Source of the DNA: Branchiostoma floridae
Taxonomy: Eukaryota; Chordata; Leptocardii; Amphioxiformes; Branchiostomatidae
Length of the DNA stretch: 64,000 nt
NCBI RefSeq assembly: GCF_000003815.2
Contig: NC_049991.1
Span: 20,781,762-20,845,761 of the forward strand
Reading direction: 5' to 3'
Shown: positions 15,201 through 54,600 of the stretch, in pieces
Position numbering within the stretch: the stretch's first letter is position 1
Layout: every line of letters begins with the position of its first letter
Notes under the pieces: model-generated
Told to the model about the DNA's origin: nothing
Seen by the model: only the letters and a program-made list of their open reading frames with translations
Database searches by the model: none
Position numbers and translations under genes: made by a program

Positions 15201-17319
15201 GGCATTTGTTATCACTTGAGTTGAGTGTGGAAATACAGAAGAAGAACTTTACTTGACTTACTTTACAGAAGAACTTTATTGAGTTTTATTGCACAACATG
15301 TAGGAGTAAGTGCTTTTTCTACATAGGGACACTACAGTCCTTACGTTCTTAGCTATAGGACTGGACGTTAAACTACAGCCTGCTGTTCATTGCAGATGCG
15401 TTTCCTGTTTCACTACCTACCTTAGAAAAATCTGATGATCCTAGCCTTTTTCTGAGTGGGCAGTGGAGTCACATAGTTTCCAATTAGAACTTTTTTCCAC
15501 CCACCGTTCTGGAAGTGCCTCCGCCCTGGTTCTCTGATGGCACTCCCAGATGGAAGGTTAGGGTTAGGAGTTGTTTGTTTGTTTGTTTATCTATTTAGGT
15601 TTACTCACCGTTCTGGAAGTGTCTCCGCTCCAGTTCTCCGATGGCACTCCCCAGATGGAGGCTCTCCAGCGACCCCAGCTGACCCAGCGAGGCGGGTAGC
15701 GCCGTGATGAAGTTCCCGCTCAGGTCCAGCAGCCGTAACGTCCGCCCGCTGCGCGCCGGGAAGGACTCTGGGAGCGGCTGGTTCATCAACTTGTTGTCTC
15801 TGGAATTAACAAATGGAAAAATATATTTCAGCACTGAACTTGAGAGCACAAAGTGCAGGGTTTACGTCTCCAGGACCTGTCCCTCCATTCCAGAAAAACT
15901 TGAAAATGACATCAAACTGATGAAAAGAATGTTTTGTAAACTTCAAATGACAGATTCAAGAACAGAATTCAACAACATGCAGGCTCCCAAACAATGCGAA
16001 CAATGTGTGTGACGATAAAAACAACACTTGAACGTTAAAGCTGGAAACAGTCGTGTTTCATATTCATAAGCACTTTTGATCAAGAGCACACAAAATTACG
16101 GAAGAAAGGGGAAGAGAGCGAGAGGAAGGCCGAAAGAGATATGGAGGCGCTGCATAGAGAAGGAGGTGAAGAAGAGGGGTTTCTCTTTGGATGAGGCACC
16201 AAGAGTTGCTGCCGACAGACAACGATGGAAGAACTTCCTGAAGCCTTACGTACCACTAGGTACAGAAGAGGATGGAGTGCGTGAGTGCACACAAAATTAA
16301 AGCTTTGCACCTTATTGCTGACTGTGGGCAACATTTGAAAATACATTGTACTTACTTATTTGAAAATAAACCATAAATATTTCAAGATTTACATGTTGTC
16401 AAGTATTCTGTCTCAATGATCTATTTTCCTTATGAACTATGAAGTTTCTGTTAAAGATGTCTTTAGACTTCTAATTGCCTCACCTCAGTGACATTTCTTG
16501 TATTGATGACAGGTGCCCAACCCAAGGAGGTAACTCCTTCAGCACATTGTTGTCTACATACAGTTTCCTTAAGCAGTGGGAAGATTTCAAGTCTTTGGTT
16601 AAAAAACTTAAGGAGTTTCCAGACAGTTCCACTTCTTGAAGTTGCGGAAGATCTCCAAAACTTTCAGGAAGGCAAGACAGTTTGTTAGTACTGAGGTTCA
16701 AGATTTTAAGACGAGAAAGTCCCCCGAATGACTCTGGCAAGGTTTCCAACTTGTTGTTGGAGGCGTCGAATCTCTCAAGCCTCCTTAAAGACCCGAACGT
16801 CTTGGGCAACTTCTTGAGGTGATTCTCATCAATCATCAAAGTCTCCAAGTGTTCTAGATGACCGAAGTCAGAAGGTAACGTCCTCAACTCGTTGCCAGTC
16901 AGGTAAAGCAGTCTCAAGTCTTTCAGATCTGAGAAGGAATCGGGAAGTTCTTGGAGACAGTTTTCGCCGGCGTGGAGTTCTCTTAGCAAGGTCAAGTTCC
17001 CAAATAAGGTGGGGAGTGTCTCAAGGTCGTTTCCCATGACAGAGAGGACACACAGGTGAGTCAGGGTGTGACATAACTCACCAGGTAGGAAGGTAAGACT
17101 GTTATGGTCTAGTATTAACTTCTCAACATGTGTCAGGTTTAAGACAGACTCAGGGAAAGAAGACAGATCCAGAGACTTCAGACACAAGAGATGGTTCTCC
17201 TCCTTCTCTACATTGTTGCTTGGTGAGAGTTGTTGGTTCTGGAAACTGGACAGGACGGTTTGAAGGCTCCGGTCGGCGGTGAGGTCTGGTTCCTCGTCAG
17301 GGTCGTTCTTCACTTCCAT
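9282..17319 (-). CDS. Leucine-rich-repeat protein, 8 exons, 714 aa
   Basis: Coding exons in transcript order are 16484-17319, 15609-15799, 14863-15053, 14081-14305, 12331-12465, 11093-11393, 10458-10562 and 9282-9442. All junctions are GT/AG and phases agree (2,1,0,0,0,1,1); the sum is 2145 nt including TGA. The start is the first Met of the long exon (MEVKNDPDEEPDL). Residues ~45-480 form about 18 short 23-residue LRRs of the pattern LxxLxLxxNxLxxLPxxFxxL, like the SHOC2/Ras-group cytosolic LRR proteins. No signal peptide or membrane segment is seen, so it is probably intracellular. After the LRRs come a basic stretch (exon 5), an acidic run DEEEEVEDEKDG, five to six SHT(R/K/S)VEGSH-like repeats (exon 6) and a conserved-looking tail ending in EDGQFDDAEEDML. 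I do not recognise the orthologue. LRR proteins of this sort are usually interaction scaffolds. Confidence 0.85.
9470..9630 (+). repeat. Dispersed repeat with (GACA)n tail
   Basis: The segment GCTAGGGGGCCCACTATCGA with following text ends in a GACA microsatellite at 9597-9623. A diverged relative lies at about 44215-44340 (GCTAGGAGGCCCATTATTGA) and a scrap at ~20640-20700. The microsatellite tail suggests a retrotransposon 3' end, which is inference. Confidence 0.6.
9680..10140. repeat. Duplicated segments plus inverted-repeat element
   Basis: Two kinds of structure overlap. Direct imperfect duplication: the text around 9692-9800 resembles 9838-9900 and 10020-10080. Near-perfect foldback: the arms at about 9911-9945 and 9975-10010 carry GTAGTGACCGCTGGCTCA and its complement TGAGCCAGCGGTCACTAC, with TAGCCTGAGTACC at one edge and GATAGGCTA at the other. 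This is a small non-autonomous foldback (MITE-like) element inside the last LRR-gene intron. Confidence 0.7.
11471..11663. mobile_element. Small TIR element (TACTGTAAA ends)
   Basis: The left end TACTGTAAAATTTAATGCA and right end TGCATTTACAGTA are inverted. The interior carries several copies of ACCGCGAAATTAAAACC and complements. The length of ~193 bp and TA at both edges fit a mariner-type MITE. It lies in the intron just upstream of LRR exon 6. Confidence 0.7.
12570..13012 (+). mobile_element. Non-LTR retrotransposon 3' fragment
   Basis: An ORF fragment at 12577-12894 has the CxxC...HxxxxC zinc-knuckle typical of LINE ORF2 C-termini (ICTFCNDRCVENEVHFLLEC). It is followed by ~110 bp of untranslated sequence ending in repeated ATTGTC units (ATTGTCATTGTCATT), a common LINE tail. 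It is 5'-truncated, carries no reverse transcriptase core, and sits in an LRR-gene intron opposite to the gene. Confidence 0.75.
13621..14040. repeat. Nested foldback element
   Basis: The inner palindrome 13621-13756 is nearly perfect: ATACAACATGGTGTATTCCG at the left pairs with CGGAATACACCGTGTTGTAT at the right, around a GC-rich centre. A second inverted pair, TTTTATTTATGTCATAC (13757-13773) and GTATGACATAAAATAC (14024-14039), brackets ~250 bp of GC-richer sequence. It has the look of a composite non-autonomous DNA element in the intron before LRR exon 4. Confidence 0.7.
15489..15557 (-). pseudogene. Partial duplicate of LRR exon 2
   Basis: The segment CCACCGTTCTGGAAGTGCCT onward matches the 3' end and donor side of exon 2 (15609-15670) over ~58 bp with a few substitutions. 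The splice donor context is present, but the rest of the exon is missing and no acceptor is visible, so it is a dead exon fragment ~110 bp downstream of the real one. Confidence 0.75.
16086..16299 (+). mobile_element. Short retrotransposon insertion with 13-bp target duplication
   Basis: A 188-bp insert (16099-16286) is flanked by the exact direct repeat GCACACAAAATTA (16086-16098 and 16287-16299). The insert is open in one frame and encodes a GRPKxxWRRCIE...LDEA...DRQRW tail, the pattern seen at the C-terminus of some LINE ORF2 proteins. It therefore looks like a severely 5'-truncated LINE copy in LRR intron 1. Confidence 0.75.
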
Positions 17320-17364
17320 TTTCCTGGTTCAAGACTCTTCCTGAAATTGTGTAGAGAAATCCGT

Positions 17365-34323: not shown

Positions 34324-35377
34324 TCATGTGCCATCCTTGGGAGGGCTGACTGGCAGGCAGTTGACGTGAAAGATCCTGCGGCATTCCTTGCACCTCTTCA
34401 TCCAATCCAGACGTTCACCCTGCTCACAGTGGCAGACCAGCGAGATTTGGTGTGCCTTGGTTAGACCGACCTTCCTGCAGCTGATCTGACGTGGAAACGG
34501 TGTGAGTTTCCCTTGTTTGAAGCACGTCTCCAAATGGCTCCTCATCTTCCTGTCGTCATACGCAACCCTGCTCACGTCTTGCCCCTCTGCGATATCCACT
34601 GCCCAGGCAATGGCGAACAGACCACAATCAAAGACGTTCCCCTGACGCTGTACGTCCGGTGAGATGACAGTCAGGACGTTCCTCGCTTGGTCAGCAAACG
34701 CGGCGTAGGACTGGTAAAGCTGAATCTGCAGAGATGGAGTCATGGCGACGCCGAGGCTGTCATACAGGCGCACCTGTCCGTCTGTACAAGATGATAGGAC
34801 CCAGTGCTGGCTGCCGTTGTGGTGGATTTGTAGCCCATTTCCTGTCATCTTGGCAAACCCGTCCTCACACAGACCAACTGCAGGCCCCTCCAGCCCTTGG
34901 AGTGCCGGGTACTGGCGGCGAAGCAGCATCTGGGCAGCCTGGATGTGGTCGTCTGTCAGCATCTCGCCAAATGTCAGAGCCACCTTGTCATGAGTGCTCA
35001 ACTTGACACTTGGCCACTCCATCTTATGCTCTCCGCTGTGACGAACATGAACAACTTGGGCAAAACGAACTCTCCTGGTTGTCTTCTTGCCACTTTCCCT
35101 CCCTTTGGATAGAACAGACTTTATCTGTCTGACTTGGTTGGTTTGGCGGCTTTCTGGGGTGTCCTCCTCCTTTGACAAGGACCTTGATGTCACCACCACT
35201 AGAGCCTTGCTCTCGGAGCAGGTCGCTGGACTGCCGCTGTCTGTGCAGTTGTTCGGGGAGGCAGGGCGGACCGTGATGACACAGTGGCGACCATCACGTT
35301 CCACTGCTGCAGCATCTGGAACATCTCTGACAGTCGGCACAAACTCAGGCTCTGCCGGGAGGTCCATTTCCTTCATA
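34324..35377 (-). CDS. Ulp1/C48-type cysteine protease with zinc-binding tail
   Basis: One long open exon (350 codons from the internal Met at 35376 to the stop at 34324). A Ulp1-fold core spans ~residues 120-300: HNGSQHWVL supplies His191, VRLYDSL Asp206, and QGNVFDCGLFAIA supplies Gln245 and Cys251 with the usual six-residue Gln-Cys spacing. All four catalytic residues are present. Near the C-terminus is a CHC...CKEC...FHVNC cluster resembling part of a PHD/RING-like zinc finger. Ulp1/SENP proteases cut SUMO-like modifiers; relatives are often carried by DNA transposons. A strong acceptor (polypyrimidine, ACAG) lies directly before the Met at 35377, so an upstream exon is expected. The 35573-35669 exon fits in phase. 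As a stand-alone gene the first Met could be at 35658, giving 379 aa. Confidence 0.8.
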
Positions 35378-35572
35378 CTGTAAAGATAGAAGATTTCAAA
35401 ATGTCAGACATAGAGTGTCCAAACTGTCAAATATGTTCGCGATGAACCTTTCTTTTTATATTCATCGTTAACAATTATCACCATGAAAGTTTCAAGCCAT
35501 TCTAGTTACAATAACGTTTCCGGGAAGATGCATCATGCTAAAGTCGAATTTCTTGTAAGATGTTGTACTGAC

Positions 35573-35669
35573 TTGAGGTTGAAGAGCGACTGTCTCCTCA
35601 GCCATAGTCTCTCCACTTTAATCTCTACATCTATCAGGCTGTCATGTAGAATGTCCATTGCGTCGTCAT
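35573..35669 (-). CDS. Coiled-coil exon linking polycystin to the protease ORF
   Basis: Acceptor GGCTCAG at 35670 and phase-2 donor AA/GTCAGT at 35573. It encodes a short acidic start and an amphipathic helix (LHDSLIDVEIKVERLWLRRQ), the kind of coiled coil found at polycystin C-termini. The incoming phase (1) fits the donor of the polycystin pore exon at 35976. The outgoing phase (2) fits the acceptor of the protease exon at 35377. If unspliced it would end after about 13 more codons. The exon is inferred, not proven. Confidence 0.5.
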
Positions 35670-35975
35670 CTGAGCCAATGCAAACGATTTCGTAAGTTTT
35701 AGTTATCTTTATCTTGAATACGTAAGTAAAGTAAGTAATTTAACTATAATAAAAAGATCATGTTATGACAATCGGCAAAGGAAACTAAGTGGTTTTGGGA
35801 GGGTTGTTCTACAGACAGAATTAACATGTGAAACAAAACTATGCAAGTAGAAAGAGCTTACGATATAGTGCAACCATGCAGTGATCATGGATCTTGGTAG
35901 CCACTTGCAACAAAAGCACGACTAAAACGATGACAGTCTTTCTCGATCATGCACAGTGAAACAACACTACGCTAC

Positions 35976-36665
35976 CTGCGGCTGGTGCTTTCCAGAAGCC
36001 AAAGAAGGCCGTGAAGCGTTCCCACAGCCCCTGGATGAAGTACCGGTCCTGTTCAGGCATGACGTGGTTCCGCACGTCCGGAAGTGCGCTGTTGATGATC
36101 GCAACGGCGATGTTCATCAGCACCAGGAAGATGATGCAAATGAAAGCAAAGAAGTAGATGGGGCCCAGGATGGGGGCTGCCTCCCGCAGCTGACCGTAGT
36201 AGAAGATTCCCAGGGACATCTGGAACAATGTGGAGAAGGACTTGCTGATGGTGCTGAAAACAACAACAACAAATATCAAATCATTGTAATGAGTTGGAGT
36301 ATTTTAAGTCCAAGCACTCCCAACATGCATGATTCTGTTAAAAATGAGAAATCATCCATTTTTATTCACAAGATACATATTAATTTGGCACAAATAGAAT
36401 ATGTTTCCTTACCTGTACTCTGTCACAACAAGGCCAAACTTGAGATATCCGAAGATGCAGAATGCTGACATGCAGAGGAACAAGTAGGCAGAGAAGGAAG
36501 AGAACTCCCACGCCATCCCTCGGAACACGGACATCAGCTTGGCGATGAACGGGTTGAACCTCAGCAGATGCAGGAGCTTCATCATGTTGACAAACGCTAA
36601 GAAGGCCAGGAACCAGCCGTAAACCAGACTAATGTTCATCGCCGATCGGAAATGATGGACTTCAT
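35976..36665 (-). CDS. Polycystin-like gene: S4-S6 and pore loop
   Basis: Exons 36413-36665 and 35976-36253. Spans include [20 protein letters not shown] and [18 protein letters not shown], the pore-loop region [17 protein letters not shown] and the last span [20 protein letters not shown], followed by a short cytosolic tail ending [14 protein letters not shown]... The donor GCAG/GTAGCG at 35976 is a good consensus, so a further 3' exon is expected; read-through would stop at 35947. Confidence 0.85.
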
Positions 36666-39600
36666 CTTTAAAAGAACAGTATAAATATCGTTAAGTACAG
36701 TATTAGTGATAATGATTACCTCATAATGCAATCAGTGTGACCCAGAGCACAACTCCATACTCTCTGGAAACTAAAGGATACCTACAAGAGCATTTTAAAC
36801 ATTTACCAACATTGAGAAATGTTGAATTGAAACTTTCATGTAATTATTGTAATGTTTTTGCATATTATGTGTAACACACCTTTCCCTTCCTTGATCGCCG
36901 CCAGAGCCCTGGAGCTGTTGTATATCTTGAAGCCATACAAGCCAATGACCGTGAATGCCAAGAAGAAGTTGAAGATTTCAACAATATTCCACGGCCCCTT
37001 CAGGTAGGCCCAGCCGGTTGCGCGTGCTTTTTTTGCCTCTCCCCACAGCGTGTAGAGGAGAATGATGATGTAAATGATTTCCAGGACGATGTAGATGTAT
37101 CCGATCGTCCCCGGCCGTTGATGAAGTCGGAAGGTCTGCACGTGGTGACGGGAGAAAACTCCGGCCGTCTCGGAGAATTCGAACACCACCGTCAGCGATG
37201 TGAACAGATCCACGTTTCCGTTGTGGAGTATCGCTTCCAAGAAGATGACCCTCGTGCGCTGGTCGACCCAACGGTTTGCCTTCAGGTCTGCTAGGATGCT
37301 GCGCATCTCGTCTGCTGATTTTCCCAGGTGCAGACCGAAGCCGTCTCCCCAGTAGTGCGTCGTCACACCGTAGATGGGGAGGCTAGGGTAGCCGCTGGGG
37401 AGGTGGATCCATCCAGGGGCCGCTGATTCCATCGCTGACGTATTCCTGACCCTTTTCCATCCCTCCTCAAACGCCCCGGTCTCCTTGTTCTGTTCACCAT
37501 ACGCTAAATAACATTCGTCAAACACGTGCTGCATTGTCACAGGCACCTCGCACAGCCCTGAGATGACAGGAGAATGAAACATCAAAAGCACATCAGTCAC
37601 ATAGTTGCATTGTTATGTCGTGGAGGTTATAGAGCCTACATGTAGGTGCTATAATCTTCTTGGTTATTTTGCTTTGTTAAAACCTCCATCGTTTTTAGGT
37701 ACTAGATGAACATAATAGATTATTTCTTTATAGTTTGAAATAATGATCCTTTGAATTTATAGCTTTTCAAAATACAACATACATTTCCTGTAGTATAATA
37801 AGACTGCATGATAGTGGAATTACATTGTGGTATGCCATGCAACTCAACAGCGAGTGTTCCATGAAAGTGGTTCCACCCACCTGGCTTTACTCGGCCTTGG
37901 ATCAGGCTTGGTGGGTAGACCAGGACCGACTGCATGTCTGTTGTGAAGCCCTTCTCAGACCAGCGGGGCTTGTCGTCATTGTAGGACGTCTCCACGTAGA
38001 AGCTCTGCAGAGCGGTCTCATCCAGCCAAGACCAGAAGGTGAGATGATCATTAACCTGTGGAGAAGCAAAGCGTTGTGTGAGTTTATTCTACTAAGTAAT
38101 TGTAGATTCGTCAGCAAGGGTACAAATGGCACCAATAAATCCATGTCCTGATCCCCATCTATTTTGTCTGTGTCAACATTAATGGATTTTCACTGGCTTC
38201 AAACGTTTTCTAAAGTTTGTCTACAGTTGCCGGGCAGCATGCGCAGAAGGCGGGGGTAGACCCTGAACATCTTGGCTTGAGTATGTCAGGAAATACATCA
38301 AGGTGTACTGCGGCCTTGACAGTGTGAACCCACTGGATAGAGCCACTTGGAAGCGCGGTGTGAAAACTAAGCCGACTGCTGCCGACACCCGTGTCAGCAT
38401 TAAAATAATCAAATACCGGATACCACTACTACTACTGCTGCCCACCCCTGTGTCTGTAACCCACACAGCAGTTACTACTAGTATAATCAAATACTTGATA
38501 CTGCTACTACTACTGTGTCTAATCCGATGTTGCACCTACGCAGAGATCTAAAGATCTATACCAACGCAAGGACCTGGTGTATTAAAAGGAACTCACGTCG
38601 TCCACAGACTGCAGGAAGGTGTTGGTTGTGCTCAGTGTCTGATGGAAACTCTCTGTGGTGTTGTTGTACTCGTTGACGATGCTGAGCACGAGCAGGAGGA
38701 AACAGCAGAACCACGCGATGTCCCACACGGTTTCCCCAAATCTACTGTCCCTGCGCTGCATCATTCTCGCTTGTTTGATGTTGGCAAGGGACCTCAATGA
38801 AAGTCGCTCCATCTTCCTCCTCATGCGAAATGCATTGCCTGTAGTAAGCATGAAAAATATCAAGAGGTTTGTATGGTCTGTATATATTTGTTATAAGGTA
38901 AAAAACTCACAACCTGGACAAAAGACTGAAGCAAGAAGATATAAGATCAATTCAGAATACAGGGTATTGCCGGGAGCACACTGAAACTACACAAAATGTC
39001 TTTCTTCAACCATTGAACAGTTTTCAAACATGCGGTAACATGCGCACAGCTTAATTCTTCATGGTAATTGTTCTTTTCTACAAACTGAAACTTACAGTTG
39101 AAGCCTGCCTCCTTTTGTGAAGACACCACACTGGCTTTAATCAAAGCGGTGCCCTGCTTCTTTTTAAAAATCTTCTTGACGGCTTGCGTCTTGCCAACAA
39201 AGGAAGTCACGATGGTGAGGAGAAATATCTGTAAGATAAAAGCATTAGTTGTTAGAGTTTCTGACAGGATGTGGCTTCATACAAAATGTTCTGAGTAGGT
39301 CAGGTTCTAATAGTAGCAAGAATTTGTCTTGGTGGCCAGATACCTTATACAACTACATCTAATATACATTTTGATTTTTTCCACCAGGTGCCGCCACCAT
39401 TATATCACCACCTCAAAAACGTTGTTATAGAGGCCTTCTCAAGATTGTCTTCAACACCTAAATATCTGAATTGTATTACATTTATTAGCTTTAGGTGTTC
39501 AAGACAATATTGGGAAGACCTCTATACTATTTTGTTTAGGTGTAGCTATTATGTCACCCGGTGGAATTATGAGAGTCAATGTTACAGGTGAAATCAACAG

Positions 39601-42600
39601 AGAGCACGTCCTTACCTTTCCTGGTTGCATGACGAAGAAGTCCGCCCAAAAAGCGATGAAGTACCCAGACAGCCACCTCTCGGACTTGTCCTTGCCCCAT
39701 TCCACACTGTACAGCACGGTGAAGACAGCTGACCCCACGGCAGACAGCAGCACCAGCACCCAGGCCACGTACTTGCACCAGTGCGGCAGGCCCTTGGCTG
39801 GTTCTTGCTGAGTGGGTGCCTCAGCTGAAACACCCGCCTCCACGTCTCGGACCCGGGGGTTGCCTTTGTTGCTGGGTCGGCTGTACTGGAACAGCAAGAC
39901 TATGGCCATGATGACGGGAAGGCAGGTGAGGCTGGCCATGATTCCCGTGTAGACGACATTCAGGGTGAAGGAGAACGGCCCGAGGCTGAAGCTCTGCACA
40001 ACCTGGGTTTTTATTTCGTCCCTTACCCACATGGCGCTAGACACCATGGACAAGAGGAGGAGACTCAGGCAGCAGCCAAGCCTCTGGCTGCGGGTGAACG
40101 TGCTATCTGTAAAGGGAAAAGAGCATTATTCATCAGAACAAGTTGGTTTTATGATAAAGAATGAAAGCAAAGCAACACACTCGATACAATATTGGCAGCA
40201 AGAGGTATTCATGCATGTAAAATACAGTTAAGCCTGATGAATAACTAAATAAAAAATTACTATTATCAGGGAAATTTCAGTCATATCTTAAACCTTCTAA
40301 TATGATTCCCCAAGGTCATATAAGATAAAGTGCAGTAAGCGAAATGTTACCTTCAGGCATGATAGCGATGGACAGGAAGAGGTGCTCCTCTTCCAGATTG
40401 CTCCGCAGACTTGCCGGGAACAGGAACCCCATGGATCGCAGGTCCTGCTCAGAGGCAACAGGAAAGGTCTTCACCACCTGCCCGTCCCCGCGGTCGGCTG
40501 CCAGCCACTCGCCGCAGACGAAATAGGACCTGCAGTTCCAACAAGAGGGAAATACATGTCACCATGTTGGCTGTAAGGTTTCGAAATTTGTAAAGAAAAA
40601 AAAGAAAAAAATACACCTTATCTAGAGAGCTAAACTGGATGAACCTAGACCCACAAGGAAGGTTTGGCTGAACTCACAGTTTGCCTGTGGCGAGATCCTC
40701 CACTGCTGCTCTCTCCACGTGCCACGATGCACGGCTCCCCTCCCCACTGTTGTCGTGCATGAGCTGCAGCTGCTCCACGTTACCCAGCTGTTCTGCTGTG
40801 CTGAAGATCAGAGTCACCTGGCTATCTTGGGTAAAAACCTAAAATAGGAAAAAAAATTCCACCTGTTTGGACTTGCCGTAAATGATTGCAATAAAAGAAG
40901 TCTTCAGTGGATAAAATAGCAACAAAACGTCCACAATAAATGATTGAATCTTCAGGGGAAAGTTGGGCGATGGAATCGTCATAAGTAACGCTAGTGCTAA
41001 ATTTGACGTCCTAACCTTCTCTTCGGTGTCGACCACTCTCACATCGGAGTTTGCTGCATCGCCGAATAGTTTGAAGGTAACGGTGGACTCTGTCCCAGCA
41101 TGCCTAGCTGCACCTGTCCAGATGATCAGGCGGTACCGGTAGCCGTTCTGAAGGTCGTCCAACTTTACAGCGTGATTTAACTGTAACAATGGGTGAGATA
41201 TAGAACATGAATGTACATACTGCCCTGGCCTCTCACAGCAAATTCTATATCATAGTCTAACTGAAGCTGAAGATACCATAGACATTGAAAATATGCACAA
41301 TAGCAAAATCAATTTATGAAAATCTTCCTTGTTCAATGACACATTGTCCTTGTCAGTAGGGCTTTGCGATACTACCCCTTTGTGATTGCTGTTGGTTAAT
41401 TTGGAAGCTCTTGCTGCATGTCTGCCTCTGCCAAATTATATGAATGAACATCAATACTGGAGAAAATGTACTGAAATGATATCCATTTTAAATAAAGGTT
41501 CATCGAGTAAAGATGTTATTGACAGATAAATCCTACTTACCTTCTTTTTCCGTACACGCTCAGCAAATTTGATCACGACTGCTGTGAACGAGTACAGACA
41601 GAGCGCCACAATGATGGTTGCAACAATCGCACCGTTGTCCCTTAAACCGCTGAATTCCAACGCCAAGAAGTACAAGGTGTTCGGCGGTGTGACGAAGTCA
41701 CGTCCGAAGACCGTCAGATGGTTGCAGTGACAGATGGTGCTGGCAATGGTGGACTGCTCGCTTATCTGTGGAAAACAGAGCGAAGTTGAATATGATCTCA
41801 TTTTGCTGGTTCAAACACTCATCATTTGGAAAACACTGAGCGATGTGGTAAATTCTGCTATATTCAATAGGCTTTTATTTTACTATCATTATCACAGTAA
41901 CCATATAATTATAATCCATTAATCTCCATTGCTTTAGATCTGATTGGTTAAACGTGCATGTGGGCTATGGACTGGAATGACAGGTCCAACTTTCACACAT
42001 TAAGTCCCCTGGCCTTACATCAGAGAGGCCTGGAAAAAACAGGATTAACTAGCCCATCTATTCTAAGATTTTAACTATCCCATCATTATGGGAATAGGCT
42101 TATAAATAGTTGACACGTGTAGCTACCTATCAACATAGCTGTCCATGAATATGATTCAGCTGATTATAAGCATATCCTAACATCAAACAGAAACCCCGCA
42201 CCTGGTCCAGTTACTAAAGGGGCGAGTTTACATGTCATGCTAACATAGTACAGATTGTAAACAATGTATAATGCATCTGTTTTCTACATTTAATTTCAAC
42301 AACATGAGGGCGTTATTTTGGAGGGGGGTATGTGCTGAATTATCATACACATGTGTTGTAATGATTGTAAGTTCATAAAAGCTATGAAAACTGTACCCAC
42401 CGCGCAGCCGTCAGTCCTCCAGTCTTCCTGTGCCTCGCTCCAGTAGACGCAGCTCAGACGGGCCCACTGGATCCGGTAGGCGTAGACGTCGTTAGTGCGT
42501 GACTCCTTCTTGTCAGCTCCTTCCTCAATGTCACACTCGGTCACTTGTCCTGAAAAAAGGATATCATAATAGACCTGAGAAGGGTACAGCTAATCAGATA

Positions 42601-45600
42601 TCGCCAGTGCCTCCTGATGTCAATATATCACACGTGTCGTATTTTCTATGAAGATTCCAAAGTCATACGTTTACAAACATCACAGCATCAAAATATTGGA
42701 CACACTTTCTTTGAATCACATGTGCAGTTATGTCAAACCGATGTAGAAAGATGCCATCATTCAAAATCCCTACAGACATCTATCTCTTCACAACAAAAGA
42801 ACAGATATCACAAAACATTCACATTTCAATTCTGTCACGCATTTCGGCGCTTGTGGCATACCTTAAACAACATATTAAGAAAAACTCACTAAGTTCTTGG
42901 ATCTTAACATAGTATAATCCACAGGGCAAACCTCTTGCGAGATGATATCACCAAACATGGTTTAGTATTATGGATAAGACAACCACACTTTATCTGGCAC
43001 ACACCTTTGTGTGGCATCAAACAACATGAAAAAATACTCACCAATCACTTGGACCATGATGTGGTACTCTACAGGCTCATGCTCTCCCGAGATGAACATT
43101 GTCGCTTCTGTCTTCTCTGCGTCATCATCGCCACTCAGAGTTTTCATCAAGGCACACTGCTCGGGTAGGACGTACGTCTCCATGGACATGTTGTAGTTTG
43201 ATCATCAGGGCGGCCGCCGTACCTGCTCCACACGCCGTACACCACGCTTGTGTTCAGCGGGGTGATTGTGACCAGGAATCCTTCAGCGGTGTTGGTGAGG
43301 TTAAGCAGATGGTAGCTCGAACTTTGGTTTCCTGTGGCAGGGAAGGTGACGATTGTCGTTGCTGGTTTGTTTCCTGGGCCGCCCGGAATGGTGATGTTGA
43401 AGTCCTCAGTCAGGTTGTTGAAGGCCACGGGGATGTCGTTCTGCAGGAGTGACAGTTCCATGACAGACGAACGTGCCTGGTACTCCCCGCGCCCCCAGGT
43501 GAATGGGTTCTGTTGAAACTGCGTCAACTGAAAGATAACAAACTAGAGTTCCACGAGACACATACCTTCGCCAAATAATCAAAGCTTAGTATGGAGAGTG
43601 CCTTTATCATTCATGTATTATCAAAGTACCTACCAAAAGTAAACGGCTGCATGAAAGTGCGTATATAGCGGTTGAAAATACCCTTTTATCCATCCCAACT
43701 GACTTCCAGCATCAAAATGATTAGAGCTTAGACAAGGCTACAGAACCAACAGGCTTTCACTTGTCCATGACCCCAGGGCTTCTTCATTTCTTTAGAAAAT
43801 AAACAACACACGCGCAGCTGCACACCCGACTGCATGAGATCACATTGTGTTTGTGTTCCTAACCTACTTAGACCAACCAAAACATGGCAACTGCTGTCTG
43901 CCAAATCAGGTCTTACCATGCACTGGGTGACATTTGTCATTTTCCTTCATTAATTATGTAAATTTGATACATATCAACATAGTTGTAACTTGATTATATA
44001 AATCATCACTCAAACTATCAACACACCCACTATCATGACAATCCGTTCACCCCTTCTTGAGTTATTCTCTTTCAAAGTCTACAACAAAATTGGCCACTGC
44101 AGTTCAAAACAAGTCACCAGGGGGCCCAAACTTACACCACTTACTCCCTGCCCAAAGACGTATCAACTACGTAAAAATCATGAACCTAGCACTTGTGAAA
44201 AATTTTACCACCAACTACGCTGCATTACCATAACTCACCGCTAGGAGGCCCATTATTGAATTTGACCTACATTTTCCCAACCCCCATGTAACTACCAAAA
44301 ACCATGCAAAACGATCCACAACGTATCGAGTTATTTTGTACGCAAACACACACGCAAACACTCTCGCCCCGCTGCAGTGCTCACGAAAAGCTCCAGGTGA
44401 ACCGTTTTCGAACAGGACCTTCGTTTCTGCAACCGCTACTCAAATACCAAATACCACGAATGTACGTCCTCAGCTACTGTATTATATGCTGGTGACCTAC
44501 ATGTAGAGACACAATATCATATATCTACCAAAAGCATAACCATGCCATTCTGGCGAAGGTAAATACTGAATTGCAACTCTTGTACCGAGAGTCCATTATC
44601 TGTCATTGGCCTATTGCAGCATCTGCCATGTGCCTATAAAGAGGAGGTACAGGGTCGTTGCACACCGGGACACAACATGGCACGTACCTTTATAGCGACG
44701 CTGTGTGGTGTATAGTCGCCAAACAGAGCTGCTTTAGATGGAATATGGAAGCTCCCATCCTCTGTCTGCAAGACCTGGCCTCCGAACTGGTCGCCCTTGA
44801 CCTTCTGAGCACTCAAGATGATTCCGCCTTTCTTGATAGTCAATGACGAAGCTCCAGGCCTCATTGCACCGATGATGGCGTTAAACAGACCATCAAGGAC
44901 CTGGCGGCTTTCCTGGACAAGTCTTCCTCTCTGTAAGGAACCGTTAAGAGAGTCTCAGATGATTAGTTCTTTCCTCAACAACATAAGACAATATTATAGA
45001 GCGTAAAATGTATGAAGAAAAATGACATGTAAACAATCAAACCATCCTGTGTTTTTGCCGATTGTACATTCATTTACAGCACAGAAAATACATGCTTTGA
45101 AATCGAACAAGAACGGTTTACAGTGTATGTAATTTACGTCACGATCTGGGGTGGAAGATGGAATCTTGAATAACGGAAAGCTTGTAACACAACATGTCTT
45201 CCTGTTACCTTAGCTTGGTTTTCCTGCTCTTTTTCCTTTGCCCTTTCAAGGCGCTCATTTGGAGAGAGGCTCTGGTCTTCCTCTAGGTCAGATGCAAGCT
45301 TCCCATCATTGCCTTGTGCATCTCTCTCTGGTTCCTCAAGCAGGAAACTGACGGAATCAAGCAGAGCTGCGGTGGAATAGAAGCAAATGTTATCATATCA
45401 ATGAGCACAGAGAACCAGGGACTTCACCAGGGATGCAGTAGAGCAAAAGTAAATGTTAGCATTTAGTGATGAATGGATGATTGATATACCTGAGCAAATC
45501 ATCCACAGACTATGGACCACGAAGATTAAGATTGAACAATTAACCCACATTACAATTTTACATCAAACACTTTTACACGATCTCTAGGGGGCAATCTCTG

Positions 45601-48600
45601 ACACTGATAAGAATTTGATATAGTTTATTACGTGCTTCATAAATTCTTACAGCTGACGAATTCAATATTAATATAATTTTTGTTCTCATACTTAAGTGTG
45701 AGTTTGTTTCATTTGATTTTATATGGACATCACTTTCTTTACATTAATTGTGTCAATGTTAATTTCACATATCAGAAAACATTGAAAGCGCCGTTCAGGC
45801 ATCTTCTGGATTAATAGATAAACTTAAGAAAGTACATAACAAGAAGCATATTGTGACTAATGAACATGACATGGTACTTACATCCTCCTACAGAATTGAC
45901 AGTGGCCGGGTCAGACATGTCCAGTTTGTCCAGTTTGCTGGTGATGGACTTAAGAACACCCACGGCCATGACCTATGGGAAAGCAAAATGTGTGTTAACT
46001 GCTCCTATAGCCTAAGGGTTGTTTAACGCAATTATTATGCAGATTTCAACTTATGAAAAACAGAATCACATGCAGTTGTGATGAAAATGGCTGATAAGAC
46101 ATTTGAAGATTGAGATGTTAAATGCTTAGTACTTTCAAGCATTCGCAAAACGATTAGCTGCCATTTATACGATTGATGTGCCAAACCTCCCATGCTAAAG
46201 ATGTCAACATTGAAAAAAAGATGCTTAAACACAATCATAGTAGTAAGATTAAGTCAAAAACACATGCCAATGCATAACACGACAAGCATATACAGATAAA
46301 CCAGAAACAGATCATTGTTTTCTGCAGAGTTGCATGACATGAGTAGTCATTTCATAGTTGTAGGCAAGGAGTCGAACAGTTCGGCTTTGTAAAAACCCAT
46401 CAGCCACCGTTACCTTATCCTCCTGTGGAAGGCCCGGACAGGACTTAATGACAAGTGATGATAACTCAGAGATCATTTGCACTTCTTGCGGCGTCTGTGC
46501 CCGACCCGTTTCAGACGCCAATGCTTTAATAGCCTTCTTGCATATCTGAATTGAACAACAATGGATAACAAGATTGAACACTTTACAGTTTGTTCTTTAT
46601 CCTGGTCCAAACTCCATAGATCATTTTCAAGTTTCCATGAGAATGAAACAGACTTCCTGAATGTTCCCAATATTTGAACCTTTACAGGTGGTCAAAATTG
46701 CTTACCTGTGCCCTTTCCTCAGCAGCTGATGTTGGCTGCTCCGACACAACAGCATCTCCAGAGACATCAGCATTCTTCTCATTAATAGAAAAAAACATAT
46801 TTTCATAATAAAATAGGTCGTTAACAGCAAAGTTACGTTAAGGGCAAAGAGGTTATATATGATTGATTATGTGTCATTAATGGTCACACACCACAAATTG
46901 AAAAAAGTTTGGTATAAATCAAGAATTAGAAAATTGTATCTATCATAAGGCTATTGGTGACAAAACAAGAACATACTTTCCCTGAAGATAATTGCAGATG
47001 AAATTCAGCCATTAAATTATAGGCAAAACAACATGATATGTCATGATAATAAATAACTTACATCCTGCAGGTTTGCGAGGATGGATGCTGCAAAGATGCT
47101 CTCCAGACTTTTACCAAAACCCTATTGAACGGGGAAAAGGCTCGTATAGTCAAAATACATTCCGACATTTTTTGCGCAAGCATGGTGCAGTGTACACTTC
47201 TATAATAGCACACTCTAATATGTTTTCAACAAACACAATAACTTTATTTTGTCCTTGGTTCTTTGTACCCCCTTTTTTCTCCTGAATACATCTTTGGTTA
47301 CTTGTTGTCCTATATAACATCTATTATCATAATACCGGTACGTTTACGACGATTTCTCTAGCCATACTGATTTGACAAATTGTCAACGCATCATTTTCTC
47401 CAGTTACATGTTGCTGTTATAGCCTACCCTTGCCACTTCTTCTGTGTAACTTTTCTGCCACTCTTGTCCTGCTAAAAGCGTAATATTGTAATTGTAACAC
47501 GCCGCGAAATTACACGGCGAACGGGCGCGTGGTTGGGAGGGGGTAAAAAATACCGGTAGGAAGAAACACGGCACAATTAACTGCCGCTATGTACATTTAT
47601 ACATCCTCTGATGTTCCTTCCTTTTCTGTCAGTAAATGCATAAAACATAAACCTGCATGAGCATACAAAATGTCATGAGAAAACGGACGTATACTGTCAA
47701 GAATTTTCATTTAACTCCTGTCCGTCACAACCGCTATGACGTAACACTTCACTGCTAGCGTAGATATAAAAATGGCGGGAAAATGGCTGCGTACGTTCAA
47801 TTTTGCCCATTCAGTCGTAGATCCGGGCTATTATGCAACGGTTCTTCACACTTTTACATGAGTTGTAGGTCACCAACAGAAATTCAAGATTGTTGTTGAA
47901 TCATGTTCGTCTTGTGCCGTGAGCATGTGTAATTATGATCTATAAATTTGGCAATGAATGTGACAGTGTGTTCGTCCCACGACGAGCTGCCTACCCCGAA
48001 AAAGATACTGAAAACTTTTTGCCTTGTTGTCTTCGAATGCATTGTTATCGATGCTTTGTAAATGATGTATTGGACACCTAGATGTCTGAAGTGTGCACAG
48101 CTCAGATATAACTATTGTTGCATGTGTAGATCTCTTTAAGTTCCAGTATTTTTAATCTACCGGTATAAGTCTTACTACCGGTATTATGCCAATGCATGTT
48201 ATATCCCCTCTCCACCGAGGCAGCTATCGTTGAGCTGTAAGTATGACTTTAAGTTAGAAAATATTTTACATAATACATTTCCTATCTCTGTCAATGAGCT
48301 TTGTTTCAATTGAACTTTATACAAATGCATATTCGGTATAGTTGAACCAAAGTTGATCAACAGAGCTAGAGATAAGTAAGGTATTTGCAAGTTTTACCCC
48401 CAAAATACGACCAGCTGCGGAACTGCGTACCTGGCCTTGCGTTGCTCTGTCCTCCACCGGCGGCCTTCTGCTGGTCTGGGTGGTCTCTGCACAGCATAAA
48501 CGGAAATTTTACTCAATCAATCATAAACGACTTATTTTTGTATATTGTCATGAAGTTGTACTTTTCTGGAAACACTTTTGTACATGGTGGAAAATCAAAA

Positions 48601-51600
48601 CACAGCAAGATCTTAACATAGATGAGAACTTGATTATATATGAAATATCTGAAACCTATAGAGACCACAAGCTTTTACATTGTATCTTTATTGCCAAATA
48701 TGTAATTTACACCTGTTTTTTTAAAGATTTGAAACCAAACTTGAAATACTTTAAAGCTAAAATTGCCAATATGCCAATGATAGATATCCCTTAGATACAC
48801 CTGTTAAGTCAATCATAGACCAATGATCAACGCTTGTTACCCCCCTCTCTCTCTCACCCAGTTTTGTTATACCTCATGTTAATGTTTTTTAAAAATTCCA
48901 TTGTGCTCCAATGGTGTATATGTATGTGCTATAGTGTATTATGCTGAAATATTGAATAAAGTTAAAAAAATGAAATAAAATAAAATAAAATAAACGACTT
49001 CTAATTTTTGTGCATAGTAGCATTTACTTGATGTGGCCTAATTGATGAATACAAACATCTTGTAAAAAGTGTCCAGGTTCATGTTTTTAGTGATATGATA
49101 AACAAATAGAAAACCTACCATTGGCTCCCGATCCTAGTTGTACTAGAGTTGATGGTATTGTGGACAAGGCTGTGGTCATTTCTCTTATGCTATTTCTCTT
49201 CTGTTTAGTTGTAGCAGCGGATGTCGTTGTAACGGCTGTTGAGAAAAATCAAGCATTGAAAAAGTGATGTCTGAAAGTTCTGAGGTAATCACTGACACAC
49301 AGACTGCAGTTCCCATCACGAGAACATCAAGTTCCTTCGGAACAGCTATCACAGTGGAAGAGTTGTTGACAAACTTAATAAAAATTGTCCATTACTTAAT
49401 GGTGGCTTCCTCAATACTATAGTGCTGTTGTGTCAAACATAAGAGAACCTACCATCCCATGCGTGTTGCACAGTCGTTGCTGGTTCGGTGGAAAGGACGG
49501 TGGTCATTCGACTTGTCTGCTTGGTTGTAGCAGCAGGTGCAGGCCTTGTGGTGGGCGTGGCAGCTGGCAGATAGAAGTATTTCACAGTATCAAAAATCTT
49601 TTAATATGAAAAGAATAGCATAGTACTGAGTACGACCGGGCTCCGGTTTGGAAATGTGACGTAGGCCAAAGGGAGGACGTCCCTAACAAAAAAAAACAAC
49701 ACCAACAACTTACCCGTGACCACCTCCATCACTGCTGCGTCACTCTGTGACCTCCAACCGACTGACGAGAACAGGGCTCTCACCCTGATGACGTAAGCAG
49801 TCTCCGGTGCCAGACCAATCACCGGAAACGATGTCTCGTCTGTGCTCTGATTGACAGCTGTCATCATGTCCAGCCCGGACACTACGACTCGGTATCCCTC
49901 AAGGTCAAGGTCAGGATCAGGGGATGGAGACCACGTGACCCTGAACCCTTCATCCGTGATGTCAGTTACTGCCGGGTCCATAGGCGGATCGACAGCTGCA
50001 ACAAAATGATGGGTGTTAAGAAACGTCTTCAGACCAAGTAGCGTCTTGTTGGCGTAACGTCGACATGGGTCTTCTGCCCGGAACCCAGAGGTCCTGGGTG
50101 CGAGTTGCCTGACATGCCACTGTGCCCTAGACACAGTGTGCCCTAGACACAGTGGATAACAACACACTGCTCCTGTGGCCTCAAAAAAGGCTATAATGGC
50201 ACTTCCTTCACCTACCTTTACCTTCAGACCAAGATTTCCCCTATAGGGGGTTAAGTCGGAGCATCACATATGTGACTACAACCTAACATGATCAAGAAGT
50301 TTTAATTCACTGATTGAAATGCTTTGGGACTTTAAATACAGATCTTCCTAAGCAATTCTATATGAGTCCAGTTTATATGCATGTTAGGTTGACAGAGTTT
50401 AGAAATACAGTATATAATATTGATTTTGTGAAACAGAACAACAATGATATTGTCACACACAATACCTTTATCACAAAGCTGTGTTTTCCATCCATCCTGA
50501 CACCAAGTCGAGCAGACACCCGACATCGTGTCACAGTCCCCGACCAGGCAGTGGCCGCACACTTAAAAACAAAGAACCGTTGACTGTGGTAGTATCAACA
50601 CAATAGTAGGCAGTGCAATGCTCCCTGTTTGTTTGTTTGTTTGTTTGTTTGTTTGTTTGTTTCGTTTATGAAGGTTAGACATCCAGGTAAGCAATATTCA
50701 AATACAGTTCAATCTCTACAACTGGATAAAAAACGGATATTTACTTCCGGACGTTTCGAGTGACATCCATCACTCTTCGTCAGCGTCACTAGAATGAACT
50801 AGCAGAACAATTCCATACAAATACAGCTAACTAAAAAAACCCGCGAACGACGGTGGTACGAACGGGGTGTCAGGGAGGCCATCTACGAGCGGATCTACAA
50901 CCCCACCTTAAACCGGAAGGGAGGACTCCGCGTAGAACTTTCCAGTACTTGGGACCCCGCCTTGCATCACAAAGGACGTTAGTTTTTCGTATGGTGTTGT
51001 CTGACCATAGGAAACTATGCTAACATGATTAACATTTGAATAACTTTTTGCATATGATCCTAACGATTTAGTGGTTAAACCAGTTTTTTTTAGTTAGCTG
51101 TACTTGTATGGAATTGTTCTGCTAGTTCATTCTAGTGACGCTGAAGAAGAGTGATGGATGTTGTTGTAGTTGTAGAGATTGAATTGTATTTGAATGTTTG
51201 CTTGTTTATTTATCTATTTATTCGCACCACAAAATACATAAAACAATACAGAAAAGAATGCATAAAAACAGGTGCAGGAGAAGGGGAAAACCGTAAACAG
51301 CTTGTACTATGCCCTCCTGCTCTACACTAAACAAAATGTATGGTAGTCAGTGAATAACAAAGAAGAGTAACACATATGATGTGATAACGATACAAAAAGA
51401 TAATCAAATGATAATGATAATATAAATTGCGAAAAGATAATAACTGACCATATGAGACTAGTTTAAGGGGTTAGCCTGGTTTATGACATGTTTTTTCAGG
51501 GCACTTTTAAACGTAAGAAAAGAAGTTTTTTTGCATAGTTTGTCTAAGGCTGTTCCATATTGTGACACAACTGTATTTTGCGGAGGACTGCGCTAATGAT

Positions 51601-54600
51601 GTGCAGAAGAGAAGAATATTTAGTTGATTTCTTTGCCTGGTATAATAGTTGTGTACATGTGAATTAGGGTTTAGAAAATTTTCAAATATATCGGGGAGAT
51701 TGTTGGAAAGGAAGTTAAACGTGAATATACTAATTTGCAACTTTTTGATATCATGCATATTTAACATTTCTGATTTTAAAAATAGAGGGGCTGTATGTGA
51801 GAGAAAATCAGAGGCAGTGGCTATTTGCGTGAATTTCTTTCGTAGAGTAATAAGAGGGTGTAGGGTTGTACGGCAAGCGCATCCCCAAACTATATTGCAG
51901 TAAGTCAAGTACTGGTATATATAAGGCTGTTGTATATAGTTGTATGAGTCTTTCGAGGGATAATGCATTTGATTTTCCCAATAACACCATCTGTTTTCGC
52001 AACTTTTTTTTATTTACGGTAGAGACATGGGCATTCCAGTTTAGTTTTTCATCTCTTACTCTCCCCCCCCCAAAAAAAAATTAGTTTGTCTCTCCTACGT
52101 TATAGGAACATTCTGTAAGAAAAACTTGGCCTTATTGATATTATAAGTTTTATTGTTACTACAGAAAATGAGGAAATTTTTTTTTTAGTATTTATTGAAA
52201 ATTTATTTCCTTCAAACCATGTAGCTCCTTTACGCAATTCTTGGTTAGCCAGTTTTATCAGAGAGTCAAAATTCTTGTGAGAAAGGAATATGTTGGTGTC
52301 ATCGGCAAACAGTATAAAATGAAGTATTGAGGAGACTTCCGCTAGATCATTGATGTAAATCATGAATAGTAGAGGACCCAAAATCAATCCCTGTGGTACT
52401 CCACATTGAATTTCCTTGTATGTACTAGATTTAATTCCATTTAAAAGTCACGTATTGTTTCCTGTTATGCAGATAACTTTGAAACAGTTCAATGCAGTGT
52501 CAGTAACACCGTATGCAGACTCAACTACTGATTCCCATTTCAACTGTTACAACTAATATTTTCACACCTGTATTTTTAAACTTTCCTAATTAAGCTAAGC
52601 TGGCAGTAATTCTGGGTTAACAAATGTAGTTCGATGAAGGTAAATATCCTCTAAGTCTGCATTGTGAAAATAACCTGTTAATCACCAACTGTTTTGTCAC
52701 TTCACTCAGTCTAGGAAATGTCAGACTGGCAGAGTATAGACCTAAGTAAAATTGATCTTGATCCAGTTTAGCTCACCGAAGATCCACTGGTCTTGACAGG
52801 GAAGACAAATGTTGTGTACGTTCAGTATTTACAGGTTCATTGTACCGGGGAAATTCTCCTAGCTCTTTTCGACAAGCACAATGAACAATGGGATACAGCT
52901 TAATGTCCTTAATTCTAAAGACTGCATCCTTTTCCATTATTCAGTAATGAGATTGGCTTGCTTGCCGGGTGAGTGACAACAGCCGGGGTTTGAACTCACT
53001 GCTTATTGGTCTAGAGGTAGGGCCGCTAACCATTGGACTATGCACGCTCGTGAAAGGACAATCATCTAGACCCTCTGCTGTATAATCTGTAATGATACTG
53101 GCTGTAATATAGAAAGGGTCATAGAATATCTAAAGTATTCACAACTACACTGTGTCATGAGGTAGGAGGTTGAGTTAAAGCGTTACCTGTGCACGTTGTG
53201 CCGTTCCCTGTAAACCCATCCAGACAGACACAGTGGTACGTCCCTGGCTGGTTCACGCAGTAGGCGTTCTCAGGACACGGATGTTCACCGGAACATTCAT
53301 CCACATCTGTCAACAGGAAGGGCAGAAAGATCAGTATTATGTTTCCTGGTCTCTCCTCAAGGGCTTATCGTTTATCAAGCTTTTCAAGCAATATGAAAGA
53401 TTGTCGAAAATCTTCCATGACGTCATATTTTTATATTATATCACATTATGTTATGTTATTTCTATTCTATTCTGTATTTTTGGATTAATTCATCATCACA
53501 ATAATCATGTGATACTGGATTTATTTTCAATACTCGGTAATACTCGAGTATCAAGTGTGCAAATGGTGCAGAAATATGTTAAATGATTCTTCCTTTATAA
53601 TATTTAATACGCTCTTATCTGTCATATAGATGAAGCAATTTTGAAGACCTTGCAATAAAACCTTGCTTTCAGTATAATATTACCAGCTGCTGCACGCACA
53701 AAGTACCTGCAAAGCTGGAAGGTGTATTATGCCGAAGGGCGGTTAAACCGGCTATATAGATACAAGTACAGAAGCTGGTGCGTTACGCCGAAGGGCGGTT
53801 AAACCGGCTATATAGATACAGATACAGAATCTGATGTGTTACACCGAAGGGTTAAACCGACTATATAGATAAAGACCTATATGTTAGACATTGTCACCTT
53901 TACAACCACCTGGTCCTATCTGGAAGCCTGGGAAACACGTGCAGTCAAAGGTTCCATTCAAGTTGACACATTCAGCATTACTTCCACAGATTCCGGGGCT
54001 TACTTCACACTCATTTACATCTGGGTAAACAGTTAAATCAAATTAAACATTTCAAAACATGTTGCAACGTTTCTTTCCTGTTACTGTTCCATCTTCCACT
54101 TGGTATCATCCTTTCCGGTCAACAAACAAACAAACAAACAAACAAACAAACTGTACTTTAATCGCCGTTTCTGTTGATCAGTACACTCAGATATATCCTA
54201 AATATGATGCATTTGCAACTGTTTGATTATCATTAGATATTATCTGACAAATGCTGCATGTGCATGAAGGCTGTCCAATAGTCAAGTGGACTGTCCAAGG
54301 GCCTAACACATTTCAAAGTTACTTACCCTACTTGACTAATAAATCCTATTTCAAAATCTGCAACTTCATGCAAGCATAACGTATAACGTATGTTTAAAAG
54401 GAACAAGGCAATGATCTTAAAGGTTGAGTTTGCAAAACAAAACAAAATACGTGATGTAAGAAAAAGAAAATCATGTGCATGACAACAATAAAGATGTAGA
54501 ACCTGAACATCCTCCGCTGGCGAGACCATCTCCTGTATATCCAGTGTTGCAGGTGCAAGTTGCATCTAGGGCAGGGGCAGGTTTATCCGTACAGGTGGCC

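Follow-up and report, generated by a model that had tools for sequence, protein, structure and literature searches.

The locus described here raises the question of whether a polycystin gene of the amphioxus Branchiostoma floridae continues into a protease of the Ulp1 type. It lies in a stretch of 64,000 nucleotides, called the window below (RefSeq assembly GCF_000003815.2, contig NC_049991.1, positions 20,781,762 to 20,845,761), and comprises, on the minus strand, a pore exon (36253-35976) that ends in a phase-1 GT donor, a coiled-coil exon (35669-35573) with an acceptor in the matching phase, and an Ulp1 exon (35377-34324) whose phase fits that of the coil exon. The initial annotation had joined the three into a polycystin-Ulp1 fusion, pointing to their phases and their tight spacing on one strand; all these elements are present, and the introns are 306 and 195 bp long (307 and 195 bp in that annotation). 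The fusion is upheld as far as genomic sequence goes, the exon order, splice sites and phase recurring in more than 20 paralogs and the protease part being under purifying selection. The window gene thus looks like a real polycystin-1-like gene (EGF, fn3, GPS, PLAT, polycystin domain, pore) with a tail made of a coiled coil, a protease and, beyond what had been noticed earlier, a PHD-type zinc finger closing the last exon. We consider it very likely that the explanation as a whole is right, i.e. that a polycystin-1-like gene has an Ulp1-PHD tail, that this cassette stems from a MULE/SWIM transposase, and that it places an isopeptidase at the channel. The features of the gene are as follows.

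53158-54042 and beyond, minus strand: EGF exons further upstream in the same gene (EGF_CA, 39.9 bits)
40677..50263, minus strand: upstream exons of the same polycystin-1-like gene, PLAT-like, GPS and fn3 (domain profiles)
36881..37558, minus strand: polycystin (TOP) domain exon with the first channel helices (PF20519, E 1.9e-26, 93.3 bits, above cut-off; extent from tblastn)
36412..36666, minus strand: channel exon, S4-S5 region (PF08016 PKD_channel, 28 bits, cut-off 22.4)
35976..36253, minus strand: pore/S6 exon with phase-1 GT donor (PF08016, 37.8 bits, above cut-off)
35670..35975, minus strand: pore-coil intron, 306 bp
35573..35669, minus strand: coiled-coil exon of the predicted cytosolic tail, 97 nucleotides (60-91% identity to paralogs by tblastn)
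35378..35572, minus strand: coil-Ulp1 intron, 195 bp
34324..35377, minus strand: last (Ulp1) exon, whole
35035..35377, minus strand: start of the last exon, a conserved DLPxEPxFVP motif followed by a variable linker (family consensus; acceptor; omega 0.56)
35062..35073, minus strand: RVRF in the linker, an RVxF-type motif (protein phosphatase 1 docking-like)
34501..35034, minus strand: Ulp1/SENP-type protease domain
His 34806-34804, Asp 34761-34759, Gln 34644-34642, Cys 34626-34624, minus strand: predicted catalytic residues
34327..34440, minus strand: PHD-type zinc finger, the stop preceding its last CxxC (PF00628 in relatives; PDB PHD fingers)
34324..34326, minus strand: TGA stop, common to a 99% identical copy on the same contig (L018, L027/L044)

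Among the upstream domains, GPS scores 22.8 bits (cut-off 22.5) and fn3 46.4 bits, while PLAT is weak taken alone, since its 18.1 bits fall below the cut-off of 23. Eleven transmembrane helices and a cytosolic C-terminus are assumed by analogy with the polycystin family. The open Ulp1 frame has 359 codons, whereas the longest among 2000 first-order resamplings of that stretch had 298, and a chance open frame was rejected on this ground.

The window gene belongs to a large paralog family. When its own genome (513 Mb in 431 contigs) was searched with the 359-amino-acid protein, at least 58 matches came up, and with a distant protein from contig C19 at least 49, mostly at the same loci, both counts being lower bounds. 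Thirty loci are of the polycystin-Ulp1 type (L018 to L043, L045, L046, L047 and L057; L044 coincides with L027 and was not counted separately). In 27 of them, on contigs C13, C9, C12, C3, C174, C5 and C19, the Ulp1 part is preceded on its own strand by a polycystin pore exon; in four paralogs read further upstream the polycystin domain was found each time and the other exons of the channel half in three. One member, L027/L044 (C13:21114046-21118204), is 99% identical to the 3' end of the window gene, about 298 kb away from it, shares its TGA and contains an assembly gap within the exon; it is either a recent duplication or an assembly artefact.

Splice positions were set by alignment to the window sequence. 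The pore donor is GT in 21 of 22 loci, the exception, L047, being out of register there, with a phase-1 GT donor visible in its sequence; the coil acceptor is AG in 22/22 and the acceptor of the Ulp1 exon AG in 24/24. A script read the last exon in frame from acceptor through stop in 21 of 29 loci; L027 has the gap, no acceptor was set for L029, L032, L045, L046 and L047, and L039 and L041 seem to have one additional intron in the last exon. Comparison of nine clade-1 loci (36 pairs) gives identities of 88% in the coil exon and 89% in the Ulp1 domain, against 48% and 39% in the two introns. Simple Nei-Gojobori counts, from which stop codons were dropped, were made on disjoint pairs of our choice, 12 of them for the protease and the PHD finger and 10 for the other parts. 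Omega is 0.21 in the pore, 0.22 in the coil, 0.30 in the protease, 0.44 in the PHD finger and 0.56 in the linker; the binomial P for a value below 1 is 4e-30 in the protease and 8e-6 in the PHD finger. Over all pairs, by clade, it ranges from 0.20 to 0.35 in the protease and from 0.33 to 0.79 in the PHD finger. The Ulp1 tail thus looks to be kept by natural selection.

The domain is assigned to Ulp1 on the grounds of its relatives' matches and of its predicted structure, which has the CE-clan protease fold, its sequence identity to Ulp1/SENP peptidases (e.g. NEDP1/SENP8, SENP1 and Ulp1) being about 15-18%. The His-Asp-Cys set with Gln, which we take to be the catalytic triad and the oxyanion residue, is complete in the window and in 19/30 loci. 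As to the zinc finger, its PDB profile matches to PHD fingers reach E 5e-7, PF00628 is found in 19 of the 21 members of an alignment, A1, that includes two MULE-type relatives (both among the 19), and all eight zinc ligands, the final CxxC included, are kept in 25 of the 30 loci. An aromatic residue in PHD fingers reads H3K4me3; the corresponding position is Ile or Met in all 27 PHD-bearing loci. Matches of the hidden Markov model built on A1 to L049 and L050 were set aside, both being rows of A1, and a single-protein search was used in its place. What the sequence itself shows is the order of the exons with their splice sites and phase, the purifying selection, the predicted protease fold and the residue set. 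The domain may be a deSUMOylase, a protease for another ubiquitin-like protein or a non-catalytic binder; its simplest function would be to take a ubiquitin-like protein off the channel or its neighbours.

Several observations weigh against this interpretation. Pfam gave no C48 match in the window protein at E up to 1 and found C48 in just five of the 21 A1 members (E up to 0.1); phmmer in the PDB linked the window protein to a bacterial Ulp-type deubiquitylase at no better than E 0.5-0.8, and no SENP was among the 60 of 117 PDB profile matches listed. One of the four catalytic residues is lost in 11/30 loci, and the C4HC3 ligands are incomplete in the window copy itself, its last two Cys lying beyond the TGA and the PHD finger being truncated. 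No pore was found in the upstream DNA read at three of the 30 loci (L032, mostly N, L039 and L045), and at least four loci look damaged: L025 and L031 have stops in frame, the frame of L046 is broken and L045 is split. L020 misses one codon beside the catalytic Cys.

The protease had been suspected of transposon descent, and as to its origin this seems right, the genome also encoding a MULE/SWIM-type protein that ends in Ulp1 and PHD as the window protein does. Outside the family, the window protein matches best to frames on C7, C15 and C17, at 30-34% across protease and PHD with E ~1e-26, and to frames on C1, C8, C10 and C4, at 36-38%. The frames on C7 and C15, when read, have SWIM and PHD over and C48 below the cut-off, and their proteins match the window protein at 32-34% across both domains; that on C1 has YqaJ and C48 over the cut-off. 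Directly upstream of the SWIM-Ulp1-PHD frame on C7 lies another with MULE transposase and ZSWIM RNaseH-like domains over the cut-off, and the two presumably form one gene. Ginger1 and Mutator transposases with Ulp1 or Ulp1-PHD C-termini, in the same order as here, have been described (excerpts of PMC2836005). Unlike these, the polycystin genes have no transposase part, and no MULE DDE domain was found in the polycystin-Ulp1 exon; moreover, the PHD finger has Trp (WYH) in two MULE-type relatives where the polycystin loci have Ile or Met. The cassette was probably derived from the C-terminus of a Mutator-like (MULE/SWIM) transposase. It would then have been joined in frame to a polycystin, and the joined gene multiplied through gene duplication. 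Its tail would keep the isopeptidase at the channel, behind the coiled coil, where SUMO or some other ubiquitin-like protein might be stripped off the channel complex or off proteins associated with it. Three subclades have lost one of the four residues, and there the domain may do no more than bind its substrate.

The capture may have occurred more than once. In the pore tree, based on 83 columns only, L062 on C9 joins the C19 trio (ultrafast bootstrap 96); L062 is a polycystin whose frame stops shortly past the coil, with no Ulp1 in the stretch read. In Ulp1 sequence the trio is nearest to the main family, at about 50% identity and also in the Ulp1 tree. Within the stretches read, Ulp1 was found neither at the polycystin loci L060-L063 nor at L051, a pore on C14 for which about 2.5 kb downstream, holding an assembly gap, were covered. 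Either the cassette passed from one polycystin lineage to another, or it is ancient and several lineages have lost it; that no Ulp1 was seen at L060-L063 and L051 favours a second capture, within the limits of pore trees on 83 columns. The C19 subfamily would in that case have gained Ulp1 fused straight to the coil in one exon. Fragments of the polycystin-1 (PC1) tail of mammals reportedly move to the nucleus and mitochondria (excerpts of PMC10063565), which makes a releasable protease thinkable: if the tail were cleaved, as reported of mammalian PC1, the Ulp1-PHD piece might enter the nucleus and change the SUMO or NEDD8 conjugates there, the channels acting as mechanically or chemically gated deconjugases and the copies devoid of a catalytic residue as decoys or regulators. 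This combination, of at least two captures from a Mutator-type transposase with a cleaved tail entering the nucleus, is offered as a tentative and rather doubtful proposal.

An unlikely alternative is that most transcripts encode a short tail of the ordinary polycystin kind, with the Ulp1-PHD exon confined to a minor isoform. Read-through stops exist for both such ends (35947 and after 35573), and the related L062 itself ends shortly past the coil. The coil donor, GTCAGT in the window and rated weak in the initial annotation, is GT in 11 of 22 loci and GC in the other 11 (GCGAGT, once GCAAGT; L029, L030, L031, L033-L036, L040-L043), apparently a GC-AG intron conserved within one clade, and GC donors are used less efficiently. 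However, the Ulp1 exon, its acceptor and its frame are under selection throughout the family, so the long form matters in one context or another.

That the protease is a separate gene just downstream, another worry raised at the outset, is very improbable. It is contained in a single exon, and an ATG directly follows the acceptor in most last exons, but an acceptor precedes that position in all 24 loci, the ATG is absent in L026 and L041, and the exon's phase fits that of the coil exon. Furthermore, in L047 and L057 of the C19 subfamily coil and Ulp1 form a single exon after a phase-1 acceptor, and a pore accompanies Ulp1 at 27 of the 30 loci, spread over seven contigs; the separate gene was rejected in view of the splice sites, the phase and these one-exon genes.

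Least credible of all is that decaying transposon remnants were caught beside polycystins and passively multiplied with them: MULE-type relatives are present in the genome, some loci are damaged and some genes are trailed by partial second Ulp1-PHD copies (L019 3082-3355, L020 3085-3361, L021 3041-3311, L023 and L025; another piece lies at C16:18892524-18892797), but decay was rejected on the omega of protease and PHD finger, and L019, L020 and L021 provide a natural contrast, their second copies consisting of two matching pieces in different frames and their first copies being open.

The preferred polycystin-Ulp1 gene shares with polycystin-1 (PKD1) the GPS, PLAT-like and polycystin domains and the channel exons, followed by a coiled coil placed in the cytosol; it differs in that the short tail of human PC1 (PMC10502374) here goes on into a protease and a PHD finger. 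The linker motif, RV[RHTS]F with a varying x residue, occurs in eight of ten readable clade-1 loci and in none of the others, and resembles the RVxF motif of human PC1 that matters for protein phosphatase 1 (excerpts of PMC3366979); the likeness may be a coincidence, since it stands after the coil here and, in those excerpts, membrane-proximal and outside the coil in human PC1. From Ulp1/SENP peptidases the amphioxus domain differs in its low identity, its predicted anchoring in the membrane through the channel and the copies lacking a catalytic residue. If the proposal holds, a sensory-type membrane channel would couple ion or ligand sensing to the removal of SUMO, NEDD8 or ubiquitin within one chain. 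The genes are also a well-supported case in which the tail of a transposase became a component of receptor-channels; as catalytic residues were lost repeatedly, active and inactive forms can be compared within the family itself. In the open-licence PMC literature no paper on a polycystin-Ulp1 fusion was found, and one may exist. Claimed new domain combinations in the amphioxus group have been put down to gene-prediction errors (excerpts of PMC4967905), and a chordin-PKD_channel fusion proved false (excerpts of PMC6071037); here the support comes from many paralogs and not from a single gene model.

Three further observations concern other sequences. L048 carries at 578-2545 a single long frame with YqaJ and C48, which is probably a mobile element, as near-equal matches lie on C8 and C10. 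L004, L007 and L009 represent a separate Ulp1-type family adjoining long KQPSPARTKQPS-like repeats. The window also contains, at 16480-17328, a leucine-rich-repeat frame (LRR_8, 106 bits) that has no relation to the polycystin-Ulp1 gene.
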